A stretch of 28,216 nucleotides of DNA from Fragilaria crotonensis (Eukaryota > Bacillariophyta > Fragilariophyceae > Fragilariales > Fragilariaceae): positions 1-28,216 of the forward strand of contig JAKSYS010000745.1 of assembly GCA_022925895.1 (NCBI GenBank), read 5' to 3'. Below the pieces are notes generated by a model. The model was not told the origin of the DNA and ran no database searches. It worked only from the letters and a program-made list of their open reading frames with translations. The first letter of the stretch is position 1. Each line of letters opens with the position of its first letter. Shown here one piece after another: positions 1,934 to 28,182 of this stretch. Position numbers and translations under genes: made by a program.

Positions 1934-3280
1934 GTATTATCTGGAAAATACCACCGAAGTGGTATAAATGCATAGATTCTTGAAGAGGCGAGAAAATTAA
2001 TACGGTAGTACTGTATAATATGTGGAAGGTAGATTTGTGTAGCTAGTACCGGGATCGGAATGATATCAAAATGCAACGTACGCGCATGCAGAATTGGATA
2101 TTCTGATCCCAATTTGCTTCAATTTGGCACTGGCGTCACTCGTACCATCCGTAGGATGTGTACCAAAAAGAGTAACAAGTACCGTCGATACTACTTGGAG
2201 TATAATTGATGATACGTTGGTGCCGCGAAACCTCAAAATTGCCATGAGAGGTCAGAGCGTAGGATCTTTGGCAGTTTGATGCTGTGATAGCTACTGTGCA
2301 TGATTCACGCCACAGCGTCAGCAAACGCAGCAGAGGTCTGGTACATTTGCGGAATGTGGGTCTAGGGGAGTGATGGATTTCTTGCATTTTTGACCGAAAG
2401 CGATCTTCGGCTTCCAGCTGTTGTCCCACAAGGTGGTCCAGAATCATTCGATATGATATGCGGCAGAGAGTGACGAGCGCAATTTTGAAGTTTGTGAACA
2501 AATACTATTTTGAACTCTGATTTCTTCATTCCTCAGGGACGGGTGGTCTATTGCCAGAAAAGCTACGATCCCGACTACTGGCTCGCCTGCCTGAACCACA
2601 TTTACATGCTGCTGTTTGATGGTTACTACCTGCTGCTCTGGGCAACCTCTACTACTATAACATGGGAAGTGCCGGGTACAACTTGACTTGTTGGGGATCA
2701 CCGAAATTGTTCGCCAAAGATGGCTTTCATTATAAATGCTGGTGAGTTCGAAGCTTGCTACCTTGTACTACGCCAATTGTTTGCGGCGAGGACGGGTCAT
2801 GGGCACTTGCAATGCTCAAGGATGGGAACGAAGTCGAAAGGGTGTGTTGTCGACACGATTGGAGTCTTGAGTTGCGGTCCCGATCGTTTCTTTTCATTGG
2901 ATGGAGAAGACTGCCATTGTCGCATATTTGTTGAGGCGCTATACGAGTCTCCCTACTGTCCTCAACTTGCCAGGGCAGAGATCCCAGAGGGCAATCAACG
3001 TGATCTACAGTCGGAACTATGATCCACAGGCAAATATGACTGGCATTATAAAAAGGCTTTAGCTCTTCAGATTGAATTGTCTACAATGTTTAAGTTGATA
3101 AGATCTGAAGGGTTTGTTCGGACTTGATTGTTTTCCCCCTTTCCGCGACATGTCATGGAGCTTGGAGTACAGATGTGATAACTGTACGTAGTCTCTTAGT
3201 ATGGTTTTCACATACGTTAGCCTTCACGTTGGACGCCGTATTCGGTGGTATGCTTTGATGCATGAAATCCGGATACATTC
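1934..3280. repeat. Tandem duplication, copy 1 (1347 bp)
   Basis: This segment is repeated head-to-tail at 3281-4625. By eye the copies differ by five substitutions and two indels: a 3-nt difference near 2575 and a 1-nt difference near 3156. A 3-bp GTA occurs at both outer edges and at the junction (1934, 3281, 4626), as expected for duplication at microhomology. No terminal inverted repeats, poly-A or transposase are visible. The unit holds ORFs of 121 and 85 codons (minus strand) and 100 codons (plus, 2720-3022). A plus-strand frame from about 2507 to 3022 is open except for one TGA near 2684. I recognise no domain. The 3-nt indel keeps that plus frame, which is weak support for coding. Confidence 0.95.
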
Positions 3281-4625
3281 GTATTATCTGGAAAATACCA
3301 CCGAAGTGGTATAAATGCATAGATTCTTGAAGAGGCGAGAAAATTAATACGGTAGTACTGTATAATATGTGGAAGGTAGATTTGTGTAGCTAGTACCGGG
3401 ATCGGAATGATATCAAAATGCAACGTACGCGCATGCAGAATTGGATATTCTGATCCCAATTTGCTTCAATTTGGCACTGGCGTCACTCGTACCATCCGTA
3501 GGATGTGTACCAAAAAGAGTAACAAGTACCGTCGATACTACTTGGAGTATAATTGATGATACGTTGGTGCCGCGAAACCGCAAAATTGCCATGAGAGGTC
3601 AGAGCGTAGGATCTTTGGCAGTTTGATGCTGTGATAGCTACTGTGCATGATTCACGCCACAGCGTCAGCAAACGCAGCAGAGGTCTGGTACATTTGCGGA
3701 ATGTGGGTCTAGGGGAGTGATGGATTTCTTGCATTTTTGACCGAAAGCGATCTTCGGCTTCCAGCTGTTGTCCCACAAGGTGGTCCAGAATCATTCGATA
3801 TGATATGCGGCAGAGAGTGACGAGCGCAATTTTGAAGTTTGTGAACAAATACTATTTTGAACTCTGATTTCTTCATTCCTCAGGGACGGGTGGTCTATTG
3901 CCAGAGCTACGATCCCGACTACTGGCTCGCCTGCCTGAACCACATTTACATGCTGCTGTTTGATGGTTACTACCTGCTGCTCTGGGCAACCTCTACTACT
4001 ATAACATGGGAAGTGCCGGGTACAACTTGACTTGTTGGGGATCACCGAAATTGTTCGCCAAAGATGGCTTTCATTATAAATGCTGGTGAGTTCGAAGCTT
4101 GCTACCTTGTACTACGCCAATTGTTTGCGGCGAGGACGGGTCATGGGCACTTGCAATGCTCAAGGATGGGAACGAAGTCGAAAGGGTGTGTTGTCGACAC
4201 GATTGGAGTCTTGAGTTGCGGTCCCGATCGTTTCTTTTCATTGGATGGAGAAGACTGCCATTGTTGCATATTTGTTGAGGCGCTATACGAGTCTCCCTAC
4301 TGTCCTCAACTTGCCAGGGCAGAGATCCCAGAGGGCAATCAACGTGATCTACAGTCGGAACTATGATCCACAGGCAAATATGACTGGCATTATAAAAAGG
4401 CTTTAGCTCTTCAGATTGAATTGTCTACCATGTTTAAGTTGATAAGATCTGAAGGGTTTGTTCGGACTTGATTGTTTTCCCCCTTTCCGCGACATGTCAC
4501 GGGAGCTTGGAGTACAGATGTGATAACTGTACGTTGTCTCTTAGTATGGTTTTCACATACGTTAGCCTTCACGTTGGACGCCGTATTCGGTGGTATGCTT
4601 TGATGCATGAAATCCGGATACATTC
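3281..4625. repeat. Tandem duplication, copy 2 (1345 bp)
   Basis: Second copy of the unit at 1934-3280, same orientation, about 99.5% identical. It carries the 3-nt deletion near 3905 and a 1-nt insertion near 4501 relative to copy 1. The plus-strand ORF at 4064-4366 keeps its 100 codons with a single Arg-to-Cys change. The unit's gene content is unknown. Confidence 0.95.
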
Positions 4626-4949
4626 GTAGTATGAAAGTATGAATTCTATGATACTTCGATGCTGCTGAGATGTCTGCTTGTCGCCAGTCGTCAGTTACGG
4701 TACTTGTAGTACTGATACCGGTACAAGTTCTGCAGTGCAGGAGGGTCGGCAGGTTATGTGGCTGCGACATGATCTTGTCCATTGGATCCATCAAGTCCGC
4801 AGTCGGCAGAATTGGAATTCGTCGGATGATGCCTTGGGCCTTGGGCGGATGATTGAATTCATCTGAGTCGCAGCTGTTAAACGTTAAACCTCATCTCCGA
4901 AAGAGATTGATAAGCTTCTTCTCCAAACTGCCATCATCAATTACTAATC
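4626..4949. other. Intergenic, upstream of NOP10
   Basis: No gene recognised. Sequence after the duplication leads into the NOP10 5' leader. Short overlapping ORFs here show no motif. Confidence 0.4.
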
Positions 4950-12794: not shown

Positions 12795-13725
12795 CTAAAC
12801 AACCAGGTTTTCCTCGCTACAAGAACCTTCATCAACAAGACCAACATTCGATTCATCAAGGTCAAAACTCTGAACGCGTGGGTAGATGCAAACCAACACG
12901 CCTTGGGCGACTCCCAAAACTAACCCTATTCCGTTGGGTGCATATATGATTGGATCCATGCGAGCGACGCCGTACGCCATCCAAAATGTTGTGTTGACCC
13001 AGTTCATTACCATGGTCGGAAAATGAATGGCCTCGCTGCTTCTCGTACGAATTACTCGTGACATGGCCTCCAAAGGTGCACCATAAAAGAAAACTGTTCT
13101 CCCAAAAAGTAATGAGATCATGTCTGGGTGTCGTTTCCACAAGAAAGAAATGCGTCGTTCTTACCTAAATTCACATTCACACAAAGCCCGATAATATGTG
13201 CTGGCGAATAGAAGTGTTGCAACCACCCTGCCCAAACTAGAATCAAACACCAAACCACAAGGATGCGAAGCATCAGTGTCTCTTGCCGAACGGTGACAAC
13301 CCTTTCACTTGCAGTTCCGGATTGACTGCCTTCCCCGTCCTTGAGATCATTCATGATCTCAAAGTACTGTAACTTGGCTGCCCCACTGTTGAGCCAAAAA
13401 CTAAGGACTAAACCGGGCATGTTGGACGCTAACACGAATGGATCCTTAGTGTAGTATCCGTAGGCCGCCCAACCCAGGCAATTACCGGTCATAACAGCCC
13501 ACGGGACCGGATTCAGACTCCCTAACCTTCCCTTCTGCAACGCTTCCCGCAGATCATACACGGGAGCTGCTCGTCGTTGAGTTAGTCAATGGGAAGTGCA
13601 ATGCGCATGAAGTGTAAGAACAAATTGGCTCTCACACACTCACCAGCAAACATGATTGCTGCCATGACACATCCCAATGAAGGGCATACGTATTCCATTA
13701 CAATTGTGACCCATGATGAGTCCAT
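12795..13725 (-). CDS. SWEET: SWEET-family sugar transporter
   Basis: A bidirectional sugar uniporter of the MtN3/saliva (SWEET) family. Three exons: 13725-13644, 13566-13165 and 13093-12795. Introns are 13567-13643 (GTGAGT...GAGCAG, 77 nt) and 13094-13164 (GTAAGA...GAACAG, 71 nt). The spliced protein is 260 residues, normal for the family, with seven predicted membrane segments as two triple-helix MtN3 repeats joined by a linker helix. Conserved prolines are P29 (AAPVYD), P49 (NPVPW), P168 (GAPLEAM) and P187 (IHFPTMV). Pocket positions are W60/W199 and N76/N215 (SNMPG, APNGIG). The second acceptor was chosen because it restores exactly the family spacing between IIG and APL. A nearer acceptor would give a 41-nt intron and ten extra residues. 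The tail (~235-260) is acidic. No signal for plastid targeting is seen, so plasma or endomembrane location is open. Confidence 0.9.
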
Positions 13726-18802: not shown

Positions 18803-19714
18803 ATGGTGTTTACCATGTCGGCATCGGTTGTCTTGTTCTCGAGAAGGGCAATGTCAAGAAGTTGCGTCCAATCAAGATCATTTATGGAGGACGTACGCCC
18901 GATCTTGAATACAGAACATCTTCATCAGAGGCTCAAAGACCTGATTCCCTCGATAGTTTCATCGCTTGAATCAAATGGATTCTGGACCAACTTTGATACT
19001 GATAGAAATGAACCTGTCCTCCCAACAGAGGTTGTGTCGGCCATGCGCGAGCAAAGCATAGCGTTGAGAAGTGGTGGAAGGTTCGAACAATCGTGGTCCG
19101 AGAGATTAGTCGAATCCACAGGCGTCGTCACGCGTTTTGACAAGGAAGGCGTCTTTGCTTGCGAACCAGATGGTCATGACTACTATACAGCCCCTGACAT
19201 TCTCATGTACATGTCGACTGTGATAAAGACTCTACCTCCGCTTCTCAATGATGTGATAAATGATACTGGCCTCTTTCAAAACTCGCTTCAGTTATCGAAT
19301 CAATCATTCAATGCGAAACTAGCCGTCACATCCCCCGGGGGGTCCACGTATCCCTTGCATGTGGACAATACGCTTGGAGTGACGGGCTCGCCATAGGACG
19401 ACACTCGTAAGCTGACATGTATTATCTACCTTAATCCGCATTATCAAGACGGAGATGGAGGTGAGCTTCGGTTGCTATTGCTCAATGGAGGATGTTTGGA
19501 TTTGGATCCACGAGGGGGGCGAATGGTAATCTTTTGGAGTGATGAGATTCCGCATGAGGTTTTGCCTTGCAAACCAGAATCGAAGGATGAGCAGTTTGAT
19601 CGGTACGCCCTAACAATTTGGTTGCCAGACAATGATCCACGCAACATTCAGCCAGACGGAAGTAAATTTGAAAGCCTGCGCACTGGTGCCTTCATGACTG
19701 ACGATTGGTGTTGA
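18803..19714 (+). CDS. 2-oxoglutarate/Fe(II)-dependent dioxygenase (prolyl-hydroxylase-like), interrupted by an in-frame TAG
   Basis: The catalytic core of an EGLN/prolyl-4-hydroxylase-type oxygenase is present in one frame across a single stop (TAG, 19394-19396). Before it: the N-terminal helix, the LPTEVVSAMREQSIAL segment, and the first two iron ligands H186-V-D188 in YPLHVDN. After it: DDTRKLTCIIYLNP, DGGELRL, the third ligand H251 (IPHEVLP) and the 2-oxoglutarate-binding R267 in DRYALTIWL. Total about 303 codons. The interruption lies in an 18-nt in-frame segment, 19379-19396, that starts GT and ends AG. Removing it joins HVDNTLG to DDTRKLTCI, which matches the spacing in animal EGLN enzymes. 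So this may be an extremely short intron, a CAG-to-TAG mutation, a sequencing error or a true pseudogene. No clear targeting signal is seen. The substrate is unknown. Confidence 0.75.
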
Positions 19715-20249
19715 CCACATAGTGAGGACGTTCATAACGACTCAAGAGTATTTGCTATCACAACATCAATCGGGATCATTATGGTTCCTCCTGAACCGCA
19801 GTCCACTTCTTGGATGGTCCCTGCCGGTTCGAGATCTCCACACCTCACGGGAAAACTCATTAATGCTATCAGGTACTCTACTAGTAAAAGTGCCCCCAAC
19901 GAAGAGATAAGTTAAGTTTGACGACTTCTACCTTTAACCCATAGAGGGGGATGCGCCTTGGCCCTTCCTAGCGAAGGGTTCAGTCTTCGGCCCCAGGGAT
20001 TCCGTCCTGTCCCAAAAGCGCGACGTGGCACGGCAGTTCTGACTTCGCACAATTCGACTATAGTACCGTGTATTGAATCTTGATGACAAAAGAACAGAAT
20101 TTGTTTGGTAGGTGTACCAGTACCAAGTAACTTTATTTGTACCAGAACTCTGTACAGTCCCAGCAGTACCTTGTACTCCTACTGACTATACGAGTTCTTC
20201 TTCCAAGAGACCAAGAGACACACATCGGTTCGGCAGAAAAATATGCGCA
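19715..20249. other. Intergenic between 2OG oxygenase and UbiA genes
   Basis: No gene supported. A short perfect hairpin (CCCTTC, loop CTAGC, GAAGGG) lies at 19961-19977. The frame upstream of the UbiA ATG is open to a GTG at 20112 but looks like leader sequence. Confidence 0.4.
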
Positions 20250-21162
20250 ATGATATCTTTGGCCAAGGATTTGATCCAAGTGTCAAGACCCGGTTGGTGG
20301 TTGGTGACCCTGTGGCTGTACGTTGCACCCTGTCAAAAGGGCAGTAACAATGTAGATGTGGCAGGTCTCTTGTTCGTACTGTTGCCCCTCAACGCGATGG
20401 TATATGGCATGAACGATGCCTCGGACCTTGACAATGACTTGTCCAATGATCGCAAGGGCAACTTCATATTCGGTCCGAAAGGTTGGTCAAAAGAAAGACT
20501 GAATCGAGTTTTAAAGCCTGCAATCTGCGCGGTATTCCTTACCCTCGTTCGTTGGGGTCTCGAAACAAACCAGCTCCTTCTTCATTTTTTTTGGTTCGCA
20601 ACCGCATTGGCTGTCAACTATTTGTATAACTTCCATTCTTCTTCCTGGAACATGATGCTTCGTGTTTGTCGGATACGGATCAGTGACTCTCTTAAGTTAT
20701 TGGCGACATGGTGGAACTGGATTTGGGCTAGAACGATCATCAGACGGGAGATGGTATTTCGGAGGTTGCAATCAAGAATATTGGATGCATTTGACCCTGC
20801 TACTGGTAAGGTCGCAGTTATGGACAGAATTATTGGATTACGAATCAGATCGCAAGTCGAATAAGCTGACTACGCTGTCGCGACTGCCCACCAAGGACCT
20901 CGCACGGCGACTCGTGCTGGGCGTCCTCCTGTTGGAAGTTCTTTGGTGTTTGGTCGTTTGTCGAGTACATGGAAGTCAATGGTCCATGCTCCTGGTGTTT
21001 GCGATCATGGGTGTAGTTTGCTTCGCATGTCTTGAGTACGCCTTGCCCCGTGCCAAGAATTCTGCTTTCGCCGTGGATCTGACCTATTTGGCCTTGCTGC
21101 AAAATGCTGGTGGCATTCAATTATTGTACGATTGCTGGAGTCGGGGAATCTTCGTGAGATAG
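20250..21162 (+). CDS. UbiA-family prenyltransferase, frameshifted
   Basis: UbiA enzymes are polytopic membrane prenyltransferases that attach isoprenoid chains to quinones, chlorophyllide, heme or carotenoids. The first aspartate motif is complete: N55-D56-x2-D59-x3-D63, followed by NDRKGN. The second is represented by LDYESDRKSNKLTT in the 3' half. Starting at ATG 20250, the first frame runs MISLAKDLIQVSRPGWW to about LYNFHSSSWNMML, then family-like sequence continues one frame over as VFVGYGSVTLLSYWRHGG to the stop at 21162. The switch is at about 20658-20663 (CTTCGTG). The span of 913 nt equals 304 codons plus one nucleotide, so a single 1-nt insertion explains it; no GT-AG intron fits. 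The restored length of ~303 residues is normal. The substrate cannot be told from the sequence. Confidence 0.8.
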
Positions 21163-21410
21163 ATCCCCATGTGACGTTGAAGGGGACATTTCAAAATCAA
21201 TCGCTCTGCACTGGTACACCATGTTGTACTTGTCGAGGGCCGATGGTGTCGAAAAGCAAGTCTTGAATCATCCATCTGTACTCTGTAAAACGATGAAAGT
21301 AAGTTTTTGTAACAGTCGTCTGCTGTCGTCCACGCATTGCCCGGTATCGCACCCTTCAATACCATAGTGTTTTCCAAGACCATCCGTAATTGCGAATTTG
21401 CGATAGAAAA

Positions 21411-21728
21411 TTACTTAAAATTGTCGGATAGCAATTCTGGATCAAACAAGTCCGATGCTTCCACACGAGTTGCAGATATGCGCGCCGCAGTTGGAGGTAT
21501 CTTTCCTTGACGCAGATAGTGATGAAAGACGCTCGAGACTTGGACGGCGACGGGATCATCACTAAATGCTTCTGGGTTTTCGGCAATGATTTCACATGGA
21601 TGCAGTGTCATTGCCTGGTACGCAAGGTCGACTTGTTTTCCTGTCACTGGATCGACAGCAACTATGCCGCTACTTTTCTGTTGGTTGGTTGCGACATCCT
21701 TTGAGGTTGAAACAGTTGTCTTCATCAT
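21411..21728 (-). CDS. Hypothetical small protein
   Basis: A 105-residue ORF beginning with two ATGs at 21728. No family recognised. After a short Ser/Thr/Lys-rich start it reads as a compact helical protein (AVDPVTGKQVDLAYQAMTLH, then DPVAVQVSSVFHHYLRQGK and a Pro/Ala-rich tail). Amino-acid content looks protein-like, but the reverse strand is also open in places. Convergent with the UbiA gene (248 bp between stops) and divergent from the HAD gene. Confidence 0.45.
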   Translation of the reverse strand: MMKTTVSTSKDVATNQQKSSGIVAVDPVTGKQVDLAYQAMTLHPCEIIAENPEAFSDDPVAVQVSSVFHHYLRQGKIPPTAARISATRVEASDLFDPELLSDNFK

Positions 21729-22070
21729 TGTTATGTTGGAGTTGTTAACGTTCGTTGGTGTTCGTGTGCTGGTGTGGCTATCTTCAGCGTTGGAGGGAGT
21801 TCAGATACAAGTCTGCCAAACTAGATATTTAGCTTATTTCAGACCTAGTATGATGCAAAGGGTGAAATGAGCTTCGAGCACCTTTCGTCTTTCCTCCAGT
21901 CCGAAACCGCCATTTACGAGTACACTGACCTTTCTACTCGGAGTACGCGTACCATTTCTCGTATTCACTATTAACAATTCACAGTGTCGTACTGTTGTAC
22001 ACATTTTTCCACAACTCAAAACAAGTTCTCATCGGCACACCAAGCTGTAATCATCATCGTTCCTTCCGAT
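21729..22070. other. Shared upstream region of the small ORF and HAD gene
   Basis: No gene. It contains a TACTCGGAGTA palindrome near 21935, a motif that recurs almost identically near 24525. Confidence 0.4.
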
Positions 22071-22830
22071 ATGCCGATTACAACCATCATCTTTGACGTG
22101 GACGACACTCTGTACGATGTCGGATCCGGCTTCACTGCGCATCGCAACGGATATGGCGCGGAATCGTTCATGGTTGGTCATCTCAAGTTCGCCTCCATGG
22201 AAGAGGCCAAGATTGTTCGGGATGAATACTTTGCCGTGTACCATTCGACGGCCAAGGCATTGACTGTCGCACAAGCGGAAGGGAGATTACCCCCAGATGC
22301 ACCCAAATTTGATGCAAAGATTTGGCCGACTGGTGGGCCGAGAAATTGGATTTTTCTCTCTTGGGAGGTGTGGATCACAAGTTGCAAAAAGACCTGGGGG
22401 ACTTGCCACTCAGATTGTTGCGTTTTCCAATGGTCCTCGCAAGTACGTCAAGCGGGTATTGAAAGAGCTTGGAGTGTGGGAATACTTTGGAGACGATCGA
22501 TTGTTTGCCGTAGATGACACCCTGCCGCATTGCAAACCTGAAAGAGAAGCCTTCGAGTTGATTTTCGAACGTATCGGCGTCAAGGCGGACGAATGTGTCA
22601 TGGTAGAGGACAGTATGAAGAATATACGCAAGGCGAAAGAACTGGGAATGAAGACGGTTCTGGTTGTGGGACGGCCCTCTGAAGCAACGACGGCTTCAGA
22701 AACGACAAAATCAGGTGATAAACCAATCGAGACAGACCCGGCTGTCGATGTCGCGATTGAAGTGATACATAAAATGCGGGACTCATTACCAAGCCTGTGG
22801 GCAAGTAGTCCTGCCGAATTTACATCCTAA
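22071..22830 (+). CDS. HAD-superfamily phosphatase, pyrimidine 5'-nucleotidase (SDT1/PHM8) type, two frameshifts
   Basis: A haloacid-dehalogenase hydrolase that should remove phosphate from small molecules such as pyrimidine nucleotides. All four motifs are present: D9-V-D11-D-T13 (FDVDDTLYD), the SNGP motif II, K in CKPEREAF and the acidic VEDSMKN motif IV. It is read in three successive frames. The first runs from ATG 22071 to about FDAK (near 22318). A middle piece, ending DLPLR, includes DLADWWAEKLDFSLLGG and reaches about 22414. The last continues IVAFSNGPRKYVKR to the stop at 22830. Each switch is explained by one missing A, at the AAA of 22316-22318 and near 22413-22416. The span of 760 nt plus two gives 254 codons, a 253-residue protein of normal size. 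Its stop is 78 bp from the convergent UBL-PUB gene. Confidence 0.82.
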
Positions 22831-22908
22831 TCAAAATAATTTATCGATTCATCATTATTTCGAGTACTTCAGTACAGCATAGAGGCATGAGTTTCCCGGG
22901 GTACCCTA

Positions 22909-24144
22909 CTAGTTGTCATTCAGGGATCGCCTAATCGCTTCCTCAAGCATTTCTTCTTCAGTCATTTCCTGGTCAGTTCTTGCGTTATTGTTAGCCGGTC
23001 CACCCGGCTGTTGAGGAGCGCCCATGCTACCCGTACCGTTCATCAGGTTAGGATTTTGCATCATCTGCGATACTTGGGCTAACATTTGAGGATTGTTGGC
23101 AATTTGTTCGAGGCTTTGCTGCATCAATGGATTGTTCGCGAAACGCGGATCATTGCGCAGCATGTTCTGCACCATTGGGTTCTACGGAGAGCACAAATCA
23201 ATTATAAGAGCCAGTCAGAACGAACAAATGAGTTGAATGTGTAATGATTTGGAGAAATACGTACCTGAAGCATGGCCTGAAGTTGTTGCGGGTCTCTCAT
23301 CATTTGAGCGGCAGCTTGCTGCATCTGAGGCGTCATAGCTGGCATACCTCCTATTCCATCCATACCAGGCATTCCTGCGAATCCGTCCATACCAGGCATT
23401 CCAGGCATGCCCACAGCTGGAGGGATACCCATTGGTGGACCACTGGACACTGCGTTGGTGGCGGACTGAGACGCGCTTGCCAGTTCGGCCACGTGCTGCA
23501 CTAACATTGGCCAGGCTTCAGGACGAGGATGCATGACGAAAAATGGTTCACCATCAATGGTTTCCAAAGAGAATCCTACTGCAAGCATCGCTGCTTCGCC
23601 TCCTGGTATCCCCCCAAGTCGCTTGTTAAATGCAGCATTGCCACGTTTGACCTTGCGGTATTTCTCTTCCAAGGGGTTGTTGGCAATATTTGACAGAATC
23701 TTTTCTAACGTTTGAACAGCTGTCAGGTACACCGAAGACGAGTTGGAAGTCCCGAAGCGCCGTGAGGGCGGCGGTGAGCGTAGCTGGGCTAGCGCTTGTA
23801 GCCCCTACCGGAACTCCAGTTGTGACAGGGACAGTCACAGATGAACCAGAAGTAGCGGTCGCAGAGCTAGGCGAAGGAACCACAGCCGTCTGAACGGGTT
23901 TTCCCATGCAATGGATCACAGAATCCTGCTCAAGTTTGTACTCTTCAACAGCATTCTTGTCATTCTCATTGCCTACCAAACGACCGCGAAAAATGAGTCT
24001 CATGGTTTCGAGAGGGATCTTGGTCGCTTCTGATGCCTTCGCTCTGAGGGAAGCGGGGCTTTCATCTGCGGCGACTTCCAGAGGCACTCGAGCCGAGTTC
24101 GGAACATTGGAAAGCGTGAGAATTACAGTAATCGAATTTGACAT
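22909..24144 (-). CDS. UBL-PUB-STI1-UIM protein (ubiquilin-like shuttle factor), frameshifted
   Basis: A predicted ubiquitin-proteasome/p97 adaptor. Order of domains in the restored 383 residues: ubiquitin-like domain (1-~80, with IFRGRLVGNE), Ser/Thr linker (85-120), PUB domain (~135-215; NNPLEEKYRKVKRGNAAFNK, GFSL), Gly/Met-Pro repeats (MPGM units, 240-265), STI1/DSK2-type Met/Gln/Asn-rich helices with NPQM and DP repeats (272-340) and a perfect UIM at the C terminus (EEEMLEEAIRRSL). PUB domains bind p97/Cdc48 tails; UIMs bind ubiquitin. The intron is 23182-23264 (GTACGT...CCGTAG, 83 nt, phase 0). A 1-nt insertion in the CCC run at 23751-23753 shifts the frame between linker and PUB. The coding total is 1153 nt, one more than a multiple of three. 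The start is ATG 24144, just before the UBL. Canonical ubiquilins end in UBA and lack PUB. Confidence 0.8.
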
Positions 24145-26122
24145 GGTGATAGGGGATGCTACTACTCCCGACTCCCGAGTATTTGATAGCTTGGAAAACG
24201 CAGGGCTGGTGCGTCGCATATCTGCTGTTTGCAGACTATGACATACGGCGCCGAATGGGGGAGTTTGATTGTGTGGGTCGCAAGCCTTACTGTGCTACTC
24301 GATACTGATAGTTGACACTTGACACTTGCACGCCAAATGTCTTGTATTATGCATACTCTACCGGGTTCCGGTACATTTACCTATGCTTACTACCTTCCTA
24401 ATCATTAGCACAGCGGCAGCACGTAAAATAGATCTGGGATTTTACCTTCACGGATGATCTACAGTCAATGTTTTACTGTAGAGTACGATATGTATATATA
24501 CATATATCATATCAATATATCGTACTCCGAGTATATCGTATGCATATATCATAGACTCAAACCATCCAATACTAGTACTACAGTACCTGGTACCAGTACT
24601 CGATGTGACAGGCGACAGCAACGGTTCGGGCATGCTGTTCGTCACTTGATGATGTATGGAGTTGAGGATGCTGATGAGTAGCTAAAAAGGTTTGTTTGAC
24701 CTCGGACCATCAGTGTTGCCATATATCTAGAAGGCAAGCGAGTTACGGATCCAACAACATAAAGGAAGGACAAAGACTCTCTCTTGATTGAACTGACATT
24801 CTAGTTGGAAATCGTGCGATAACCTAGTTGGCGGTGAACCGGGATGCAGAGTACTATGTGCTCCGGAGTACAAGTAGAACTACCATAGTGTGTAGAGAAT
24901 CATTTGGTTGGAGGTCACAATGAGAACTCATCATGACTTGAACATGAACTAGTCAACATTGATATGCGTGCTTTCAATTAAAACATCAAAGATTTATTAC
25001 TGTACAAAACACTACTACTGAACGTTCATACTATGGTATTGTTGATTGACTGAAATAGAAATCATAAAGGGTCAAGGCACAGTGTACTGGAGTTGTAGGC
25101 GCCCCTTTGCTGTCCACTGTCCACCACAAACCAGGGCACTATGAGTAAGTTACTATTCAGAATTCCTGGAGGGTCCAGCACAGCATAAGAAATTGAGCCA
25201 CCTTCAGTCAAAGCATGGCAGAATGTTTTTCACTGAACCTTCCAGTTACGCAGTAACAAACATAAGAAATCAAGGAAGCAAAGTCACTGTAAGGCCTTTG
25301 TGTGTTCACGTCAACTCAAATGTCACTCCACATGCCATCAAAATTAAAAGATAACCAGGGGTCAAGTTGCAAAACCATCTTCACAGTACATGTGGTTGGC
25401 CCCCAATCATGATTGGTGACTGAGAACCAGCCACTGAGTTGTCGTTACATTGTATTCAAATAATAAAACCCCAGAATCAAATCAGTAGTACGGAAGTCAA
25501 GTGCAATCTGGTCTATGGTGGGATGTCTCTTTCGTAAACTTACTTGAATGGCGTCCATTCATCTTTAATCAAAGTTGATGATTGACAGTGATAGAAGTTG
25601 CATTGCATTTCGATCTAGACACTTCACAAATGAAGGTTTTGAAAGCTTATTATTTTATCCTGCATGAAATGAAGTCCAAGCAATACTCTTGGTAATGAAT
25701 ATCATTCTGCTGTGTTGAAGATCAAATCACAGTATTTGTAGTCCACTTCATTTTGCATTATTGACAATGCAAACCGTTGGACACCGTATGCTGTTAATCG
25801 TTACCTTAATGCATCCGCGTCCGGTTGATGACACCAAAAATGTCGTTTTTCTGAATATACATTAAATTGCGTTTTGTATAGTGGGCAAAAGACATGCCTC
25901 AACTTGTAACAATGGAAGTTACTTTACCAGCAACTACTGCCACAGATTTGGAAGTTACCTTCTAAACAATAAGGAAGAGCACCAAGAAACTTCATTCTAT
26001 CTGAAATTAAACAATAATAGGCATATAACTACATTTGTGAGATGATGATCTTCTGTCAGAGTCCTATACAATTGACATACGTGTCGACTGACAACATGCT
26101 GAGATTTTGAAACTCATGCTGA
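24145..26122. other. Long AT-rich gene-poor stretch
   Basis: About 2 kb with no ORF longer than 75 codons and no tRNA or repeat gene that I can recognise. Composition is more AT-rich than the coding parts, especially from 24900 to 26100. Visible elements are an 18-bp palindrome (listed), a TACTCCGAGTA palindrome near 24525, a GTAC-rich cluster at 24570-24602, and an inverted repeat (TTGCATT, loop ATTGAC, AATGCAA) near 25755. It may hold a non-coding transcript or old repeat remnants; nothing proves either. Confidence 0.5.
24488..24505. repeat. 18-bp perfect AT-rich palindrome
   Basis: ATATGTATATATACATAT equals its own reverse complement. It is embedded in ~70 bp of TA-rich sequence. Confidence 0.9.
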
Positions 26123-28182
26123 CTATATTACAACAATTGATGCTATCCTGGCGAAGCGGTTGGGAACGGAGTCTGACTTATCAATCCATAATCGTAACTC
26201 ATACTGTCCATCAGCATTCGGGTTGTGATAAAATCCGTTCTTTGTTTTCACAACAAAGCAATCGTCAATAGGTATAAGTTCAGAAATGGGTTCCCGATTT
26301 AGTTCCATCTTCCAGTCAACGTTGAACGTCTGAAAGGCAACCTCGCCTGGAGGACATTTCCCCCAGTTGCACCTGGAAAAACAAACAACAATGACGCCCA
26401 CTGGGTTAAAGCCAGCCGGGGCATATGCTGCTTTTTCCGCATCACCTGGGAATACGAGCGAGGCCCAACCCCAGTCTTGTGTACAGTAGAAGTAGTCCTT
26501 ATGGTCGATATTGAGTTCTACAGGGCACTCTTGACGATCTTCTGTTTCAAGAACCAATGTCATGTCCCTCCTGTGGCCTTCAGGTGGTGGATTTTTTGCC
26601 GCGTGTTGGACATGAACTCCTTGCACATATCTATGCGCCTCCACTTTCTCCCTACTGTCTGTCAAGATACCGAGGAACCTGGTTTGAGCTGGCAAGAGTG
26701 CCGTTTTACAAACTGCCTTGTAACGGAAGAAGTATTGACTCTTGAGCCCTGCAGCGGCTAGTTCTTGCGAGATCAAACCTTCTGTCACGTCCGGCACTGC
26801 CGAGTTGAGGTACATCGAGTATTCAATATCCTCTTCCTTCAACAGTCTGGCGTACAACTGCCTAGGATCCTCGGGACTTTCGGCCAGGTCCTTGAGAGCA
26901 TCGATCATCGTTTCTGTCAGGAACAGTGCCAAAATATTTCCCGTGGTCGCATGCTGCCTCCAGCCGGGATGCCAACTGGCCCTAAACTTTCGATCGGGGC
27001 AAACATTGATGTTGTACTTCAAGTCGCCGCACTTATCTTCCTTCTCTAAAGCGTTTTTGCACTTGAAGTATCGAGCGTATGGTCCAAGCTTCGCCAATTC
27101 TTCATCGGGCAACCCGAATGAATCCGGGACAGCTTCAGCTACTTCTGCCTCGATGTTTGGCAGCAGCTGAAGTGTTGGGACTCCGGCTTCTTCGGCCAAT
27201 CGTAACATACCCATTCGACTTCTGTAGCGACGTCCGCGATTGCCGATTGAAAAGTGAACAGGTCGATTCGAATGAAGACCAGTACGACTGGCGAAAAAGT
27301 TGGTCTTCCAGTGTGCATTGCCGTCTGTCATACCAAAGTCCCAAGTGATGACATCAGCATCCTTGCCATAAATCGCTTCGTTGCACAGGGCAAGCTGAGG
27401 AGCCGAGTTCATGCCTCCCATGGCATGATTTCGACCCACAAAATCAATTCCCACTGAGCGAAAGACATCCTTGACGCCTCGTTCTAAAAAGGCCGTGTAA
27501 GATTCATTGAACAGGTTGCCGTGTCCCGCTGCTGACGAGTGACCACCCGTCACCCATACAAAGCGTTCGTAAAACGGTGGGATCGTTGGAGGACCACTTT
27601 TTCTTGAAGACGACGATGTGTCACAGGCTCAGATTTGGTGCAATCACAGCCCTGTAGATTCTTTCGTTCGTCGAGGATTCTTATTTGCACCTTAAGTGCC
27701 TTCATCTGGAGCTTGCGACGAAACTTGACGTAGGAAACGTTTAATGCCGGATCTGGAGATACGCAAACCTTTTCTCCTATCACTTGGCCATTCGCTTTGT
27801 TAATCCACATCAATTTGAAGGGTTCCTCCCCATAGTCGTCCCTCAGCATGTTGTGCAATCTTTCGCGTTCCTTTTCGACAGCCTTGAGAAGGAAGTGTGG
27901 GTCTAATAGGTCGCCTCCATGACGTCTCAGGAGCTGATTCGACCGAGCGTCACATAGTCCTGGGCAAAATTCGCGTTTAATCTTTTTCTCGACTCCAACC
28001 GTGGCGTCGAGAATCGGCTCCGCCTTTTCGACAAAGAGATACATGCCTGCCATTGCCATCAGGGCCACAAAACCATACCACCTTTGCACTTGTTGAAGGA
28101 AGGGAATTCGCTCTATTTGCTTCGTTTCCTTCGTATCCTTACGCCCATCCACAAGAGGTTGGGATTGTACAACGACATCCAT
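26123..28182 (-). CDS. SGNH-hydrolase-like type II membrane protein, frameshifted
   Basis: The N-terminal part (from ATG 28182) has a basic cytosolic segment, one membrane helix at about 36-51 (YGFVALMAMAGMYLFV) and a Cys-containing luminal stem. At a run of five A on the coding strand (27598-27602) the frame shifts by one. The continuation reads FYERFVWVTGGHSSAAGHGN and then the body. One missing A explains it: 2060 nt plus one gives 687 codons, about 686 residues. The body has an SGNH-like block I (GGHSSAAGHGN), RNHAMGGMNS, a WDFGMTDG motif and a late WHPG (RASWHPGW) that could supply the catalytic His. The C-terminal ~200 residues look like a separate beta-rich domain. This suggests a secretory-pathway esterase or acyltransferase-like enzyme acting on glycans or lipids, but the substrate is unknown. 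Whether the nucleophilic Ser is conserved cannot be confirmed by eye. Confidence 0.72.

Follow-up and report, generated by a model that had tools for sequence, protein, structure and literature searches.

A stretch of 28,216 nt from the diatom Fragilaria crotonensis (contig JAKSYS010000745.1, referred to as the window) contains an oxygenase gene whose reading frame is interrupted, in the genome sequence as given, by a TAG codon at 19394-19396. This codon closes an in-frame segment of 18 nt with GT and AG ends. Is the segment an ultra-short intron, or is it coding sequence that carries a lesion?

The oxygenase gene and its in-frame stop

The gene and its parts are as follows.

18803..19714, forward strand: gene for a prolyl-hydroxylase-type (PHD/EGLN-like) 2OG-Fe(II) oxygenase, 303 codons followed by TGA, with one in-frame TAG inside (translation, PF13640, PDB matches)
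18803..19393, forward strand: N-terminal piece, 197 aa, holding the HxD iron ligands at 19358-19366
19379..19396, forward strand: GT..AG segment, 18 nt, codons V T G S P stop, interpreted as an extension of the loop that is coding and bears the lesion, rather than as an intron
19394..19396, forward strand: premature TAG codon (translation)
19397..19711, forward strand: C-terminal piece of 105 aa, containing the His at 19553-19555 that is the distal ligand of the iron and the 2OG-binding Arg at 19601-19603 (PF13640, alignment)

The translated frame runs from ATG 18803 to TGA 19712-19714, and the TAG is the sole stop in between. The C-terminal piece alone matches the Pfam family PF13640 (2OG-FeII_Oxy_3) with an E-value of 2e-14. 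The N-terminal piece alone matched no Pfam family at E 0.01. With X placed at the stop, the protein finds prolyl 4-hydroxylase from Phytophthora capsici (pdb entry 6iuq, E 2.4e-13), Pseudomonas PPHD (4iw3, 1.3e-12) and EGLN1 (about 5e-9 at best) by sequence in the PDB. The best of these matches, 6iuq, comes from a stramenopile. It shares the HxD..H..R core, the RK(V/L)TC..YLN strand and the GDGGE turn with the window protein; the match spans query residues 155-276 only.

The window protein was aligned with 39 relatives (38 from genome contigs, one viral) chosen from 77 distinct ORFs. No variation is seen at H186, D188 and R267 in this 40-row alignment and very little at H251, and the read-through protein keeps all four across the stop. 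By the roles of these residues in the family, H186, D188 and H251 are the iron triad (HxD..H) and R267 is the 2OG-binding arginine.

A structure of the read-through protein was predicted with AlphaFold2 on the same alignment (mean pLDDT 71, pTM 0.72). All 50 best fold matches listed for this model are prolyl hydroxylases, with PPHD, the Dictyostelium PHD, P. capsici P4H and EGLN1 at the top. EGLN1/PHD2 and the bacterial PPHD (4iw3) have the fold and the ligands in common with the window protein, at 21-24% identity in the fold alignments listed. From the HxD..H motif with its arginine, the PF13640 match and the predicted double-stranded beta-helix fold, the product of 18803-19714 is predicted to be a PHD/EGLN-like 2OG-Fe(II) oxygenase.

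Position and composition of the 18-nt segment

The segment, GTGACGGGCTCGCCATAG, comprises codons 193-198 counted from ATG 18803. Its coordinates, letters, GT and AG ends, length as a multiple of three and status as carrier of the only internal stop had been reported in the first-pass annotation, and all were confirmed on the sequence. The same applies to its position, with the HxD strand before it and the next core strand after it. It begins four residues past the D of HxD (HVD-NTLG / VTGSP-stop / DDTR-KLTCIIYLN), and in the predicted model it is flanked by strands 183-186 and 202-209. Mean pLDDT is 56 for the block of loop residues 191-200 and 91 for the next block; the low value in the model is as for a flexible surface loop.

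Measured against the coding usage of the window, the five sense codons of the segment have a mean log2 score of 0.29, compared with 0.07 for the whole gene, and look ordinary for coding sequence of the window. Their GC3 is 0.8 versus 0.51 and 0.45 in the flanking parts of the gene, a difference of which five codons say little.

We propose that the gene would encode one continuous prolyl-hydroxylase-like 2OG oxygenase with a loop that is naturally about six residues longer (V T G S P x) where the HxD strand connects to the next core strand. The sixth of these codons would read TAG either because of a base-call or assembly error or because the strain or allele sequenced carries a real nonsense mutation. 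We infer from the comparisons below that the segment is coding throughout and that its last codon formerly specified an amino acid.

Loop length in relatives

The loop from HxD to the next strand has 14 residues in the window protein and 8 without the 18 nt. The shortened loop had previously been described as having the length seen in EGLN-type enzymes. This is nearly but not exactly so: 8 is the value in close bacterial PHDs, 4iw3 among the structures, and in 6iuq, whereas EGLN1/PHD2 has 7. The best sequence match, 6iuq, is unlike the window gene in having a loop of 8 rather than 14 and in being uninterrupted.

A scan of genome contigs found 116 relatives, the best 80 of which were returned; these are bacterial by their titles. 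In this first sample the motif was found at 79 of 81 loci, with a loop of 8 in 65 and a nominal loop of 12 in 14. At the latter 14 an earlier HYD had been caught, and the three of them that are in the alignment place the true pair at HLD, with a loop of 8. The two loci missed by the motif count have loops of 8 (L079) and 11 (the viral L001). A second sample, covering 296 genomes of one phylum, gave 85 matches. Of these, 50 were covered, the best 30 as loci and 20 weaker ones as fetched sequences. Among the close loci of this sample (the 30 plus two more) 31 of 32 have a loop of 8, and in one the motif was not recognised; the 32 include three from genomes of the first sample. The motif was recognised in 13 of the 20 weaker relatives, with loops of 11 (eight), 12 (two), 5 (two) and 8 (one), and not in the other seven. 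One identical protein at two loci of the viral collection, both obtained with a eukaryote-weighted alignment query, has a loop of 6.

Other searches were less productive. Neither the read-through protein nor the C-terminal piece nor the pattern WSDE-PHEV had a match in the viral collection, where a three-row alignment query gave one distant locus, L001. Five viral loci found with a degenerate RK-TC-YLN pattern were discarded, as they are open stretches without HxD and look like chance. Plasmids and phages gave zero tblastn matches at E 1e-3. An orthologue with a sense codon at 19394 was found in none of the viral, plasmid, phage and genome-contig collections, none of which is eukaryotic. The literature search returned no title on diatom prolyl hydroxylases and no text mentioning 6IUQ.

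The most informative parallel to an extended loop is the Dictyostelium prolyl hydroxylase (6t8m), which has the same fold and a natural insertion at the same place. Its sequence HRD-SFYS-sesl-TISR-RIT carries four additional residues at the very point of VTGSP-stop, so that 12 residues lie between HRD and the strand. It differs from the window protein in having four extra residues versus six, in their identity and in the absence of a stop. Relative to the bacterial rows of the 40-row alignment the window protein itself is longer at two further places, by about 18 residues near 132-149 and by 7 near 259-265, both without a stop. Judged from these sequences, loop length is not diagnostic of an intron: 6t8m is extended at this very site, the loops measured in wider relatives have 5 to 12 residues, and insertions occur elsewhere in the window protein. 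Nevertheless, 14 residues exceed every loop measured, and all measured close bacterial relatives and 6iuq have 8, which counts against a natural extension of the loop.

The uniform value of 8 in these relatives would also fit a real 18-nt insertion bearing a stop, by which the gene of an ancestor with an 8-residue loop was broken, with no splicing involved. We regard this as improbable. The segment has no second copy in the window even when up to 3 mismatches are allowed, its codons look ordinary, and the Dictyostelium enzyme carries extra residues at this site naturally.

Chance occurrence of GT..TAG

Since the TAG itself supplies both the AG and the reading frame, only an in-phase upstream GT is required for a segment to look like an intron. 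The frequency of such a GT was determined for 1729 codons from six ORFs of the window, the oxygenase among them, by taking every codon as TAG in turn. A segment of exactly 18 nt resulted at 109 of the 1729 codons (6.3%), one of 15-33 nt at 648 (37.5%) and one of 12-48 nt at 1018 (58.9%). GT..TAG is readily given by chance, and the GT..AG appearance is thus weak evidence for an intron.

Splice sites were compared with a five-point count (R at +3, A at +4, G at +5, T at +6 and a pyrimidine before AG), in which the 18-mer scores 3. The oxygenase gene contains 20 GT..AG choices of 12-220 nt that skip the stop, six of them listed, the 18-mer included. Introns of 144 and 177 nt, which score 3 like the 18-mer, were rejected because they would delete the HxD motif, and those of 87, 168 and 180 nt because they would delete core strands after HxD. 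The remaining 14 options score 2 or less.

Introns of the window and tiny introns elsewhere

Three introns were recognised in the window, with lengths of 71, 77 and 83 nt. Two belong to a SWEET sugar transporter gene (12795-13725, reverse strand), which has two ordinary introns and is continuous once spliced.

13567..13643, reverse strand: intron 1 of the SWEET transporter gene, 77 nt, GTGAGT..GAGCAG; spliced protein continuous
13094..13164, reverse strand: intron 2 of the SWEET gene, 71 nt, GTAAGA..GAACAG; spliced protein continuous
23182..23264, reverse strand: intron in the ubiquitin/PUB-domain gene, 83 nt, GTACGT..CCGTAG; similar coding sequence resumes after it, as read by eye

Counted by hand, these introns score 5, 4 and 4, compared with 3 for the 18-mer. 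Their GC contents are 47, 42 and 37%, versus 67% in the 18-mer. The donor of the 18-mer, GTGACG, has neither G at +5 nor T at +6, and adenosines occur only at positions 4, 15 and 17 of 18.

Tiny introns are known from other organisms. In Stentor, tiny introns measure 15-16 nt, and 8173 of 8806 introns are 15 nt long with the branch adenosine mostly at position 10 (PMC9505925). Chlorarachniophyte nucleomorph introns are given as 18-24 nt, mostly 18-23 or 24, and AT-rich (PMC4035089). The 18-mer resembles both classes in length range and in its GT and AG ends. An AT-rich body of the nucleomorph type is absent from the 18-mer with its 67% GC, and so is a branch adenosine placed some five nt from the 3' end, as in Stentor. 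Those genomes have hundreds to thousands of tiny introns, whereas the window has one GC-rich candidate beside introns of 71-83 nt. For the diatom Phaeodactylum, the Phatr3 annotation gives a mean intron length of 142 bp (PMC5859163). Judged by sequence, the composition, the donor and the branch position of the 18-mer do not suit a tiny intron.

It is consequently very unlikely that the segment is an 18-nt GT-AG spliceosomal intron. Its removal would join NTLG to DDTR and restore the loop of 8 found in close bacterial PHDs and 6iuq; it has the proper ends, is a multiple of three and contains the sole stop; and the Stentor and nucleomorph introns (PMC9505925, PMC4035089) provide precedents. Such an intron would lie in a nuclear gene of a photosynthetic stramenopile and would have to be removed by a spliceosome that otherwise handles introns of 70-80 nt. 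Against it stand the chance counts, the length and GC content (37-47%) of the recognised introns, the poor donor, the adenosine positions when set beside the Stentor branch point, and the Phaeodactylum mean. The first-pass annotation had offered an ultra-short intron or a lesion, with the lesion as the simpler choice. The lesion half of this statement fits our results. The intron half is left unsupported by the chance frequency of GT..AG, by loop length, composition, donor and branch position, and by the 71-83 nt introns nearby.

Possible read-through or a functional stop

Both halves of the gene are intact, and a full-length enzyme could in principle be made from this mRNA by translational read-through or recoding of TAG. 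We give this little credence, as the five other ORFs of the chance test contain no internal stop under the standard code, and neither does the SWEET gene once spliced. Equally improbable is a real and functional stop with the 197-aa protein as the product and the downstream half as a relic. The N-terminal ORF is open, but the short form would be without the second iron ligand. Moreover, the 105 aa after the stop still match PF13640 (E 2e-14), keep their ligands and contain no further stop, an intactness as expected under recent selection.

Other frame changes in the window

A coding loop with a lesion would not be the only interruption of a gene in this part of the window. The clearest case is the following.

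22071..22830, forward strand: pyrimidine 5'-nucleotidase-like gene of the HAD hydrolase family; the frame changes twice, near 22316 and 22417; TIGR01993

The two ends of this gene match TIGR01993 in different frames (profile positions 2-61 and 103-183; 28 and 72 bits), and the middle stretch in the third frame matched nothing alone. Chained with X, the three frames give a single match over profile positions 2-183 of 183 with 106 bits, which is under the curated cut-off of 142.9. The 154 nt between the matching pieces must encode about 41 profile positions (123 nt), so that there is no space for an ordinary intron. No GT..AG option of 45-220 nt at either switch of frame scores above 3 of 5, and a branch-like CTRAY is absent from the six best listed for each. 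From its sequence, the HAD gene would contain either sequence errors or be a broken gene.

Three more genes change frame. A UbiA-like prenyltransferase gene (20112-21162) is split over two frames around 20660. Chaining its frames with X did not extend the family match past the join, so a lesion in that gene is unproven. In the gene with a ubiquitin domain and a PUB domain (23202-24219, reverse strand) a frame change was placed by eye near 23757. A large, putatively SGNH-like protein (26123-28182, reverse strand) occupies two frames with a switch near 27605 beside a run of A, also placed by eye; neither piece matches Pfam. At these three frame changes, in the order given, 26, 12 and 12 GT..AG options of 45-220 nt are available, and some score 4 of 5. 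As lesions they are suggestive only, and introns are possible there.

In the genes that were looked at, every frame change, like the stray stop, lies to the right of 18.8 kb. Five ORFs between 578 and 12736 are open, three of them with Pfam matches. Perhaps 18803-28182 is a stretch of lower sequence quality. A tandem duplication of about 1.35 kb (1934-4632) consists of two copies with 99.3% identity, which differ by six substitutions and by indels of 3 nt and 1 nt. As these copies differ mostly by substitutions, they are uninformative as a gauge of sequence error.

Frameshifts and premature stops are known from long-read assemblies, where they arise chiefly via homopolymer indels (PMC12007338). 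The lesions of the HAD gene are indels, and so are most long-read errors, so that a base-call error to TAG gains only circumstantial support from them. A substitution to TAG is a rarer kind of error, and a real nonsense mutation is hence about as likely as an error.

Preferred explanation and implications

Taken together, it is highly probable that the 18 nt are a natural, coding extension of the loop, in which one sense codon was turned into TAG by a base error or by a real nonsense mutation. This explanation is supported by the catalytic residues kept on both sides of the stop, the insertion in 6t8m, the chance frequency of GT..AG, the frame lesions of the HAD gene and the ordinary codons of the segment.

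The case shows why any in-frame TAG resembles the end of a tiny intron. If the 18 nt were an intron after all, it would be a tiny one amid ordinary ones and would constrain how the spliceosome fits a lariat. Sequencing reads are needed to back the gene models of this stretch. If the TAG is a sequence error, the enzyme made in the cell is full-length and normal. If the nonsense mutation is real, a 197-aa fragment would result, which is presumably inactive since it ends before the second iron ligand and before the arginine that binds 2OG.
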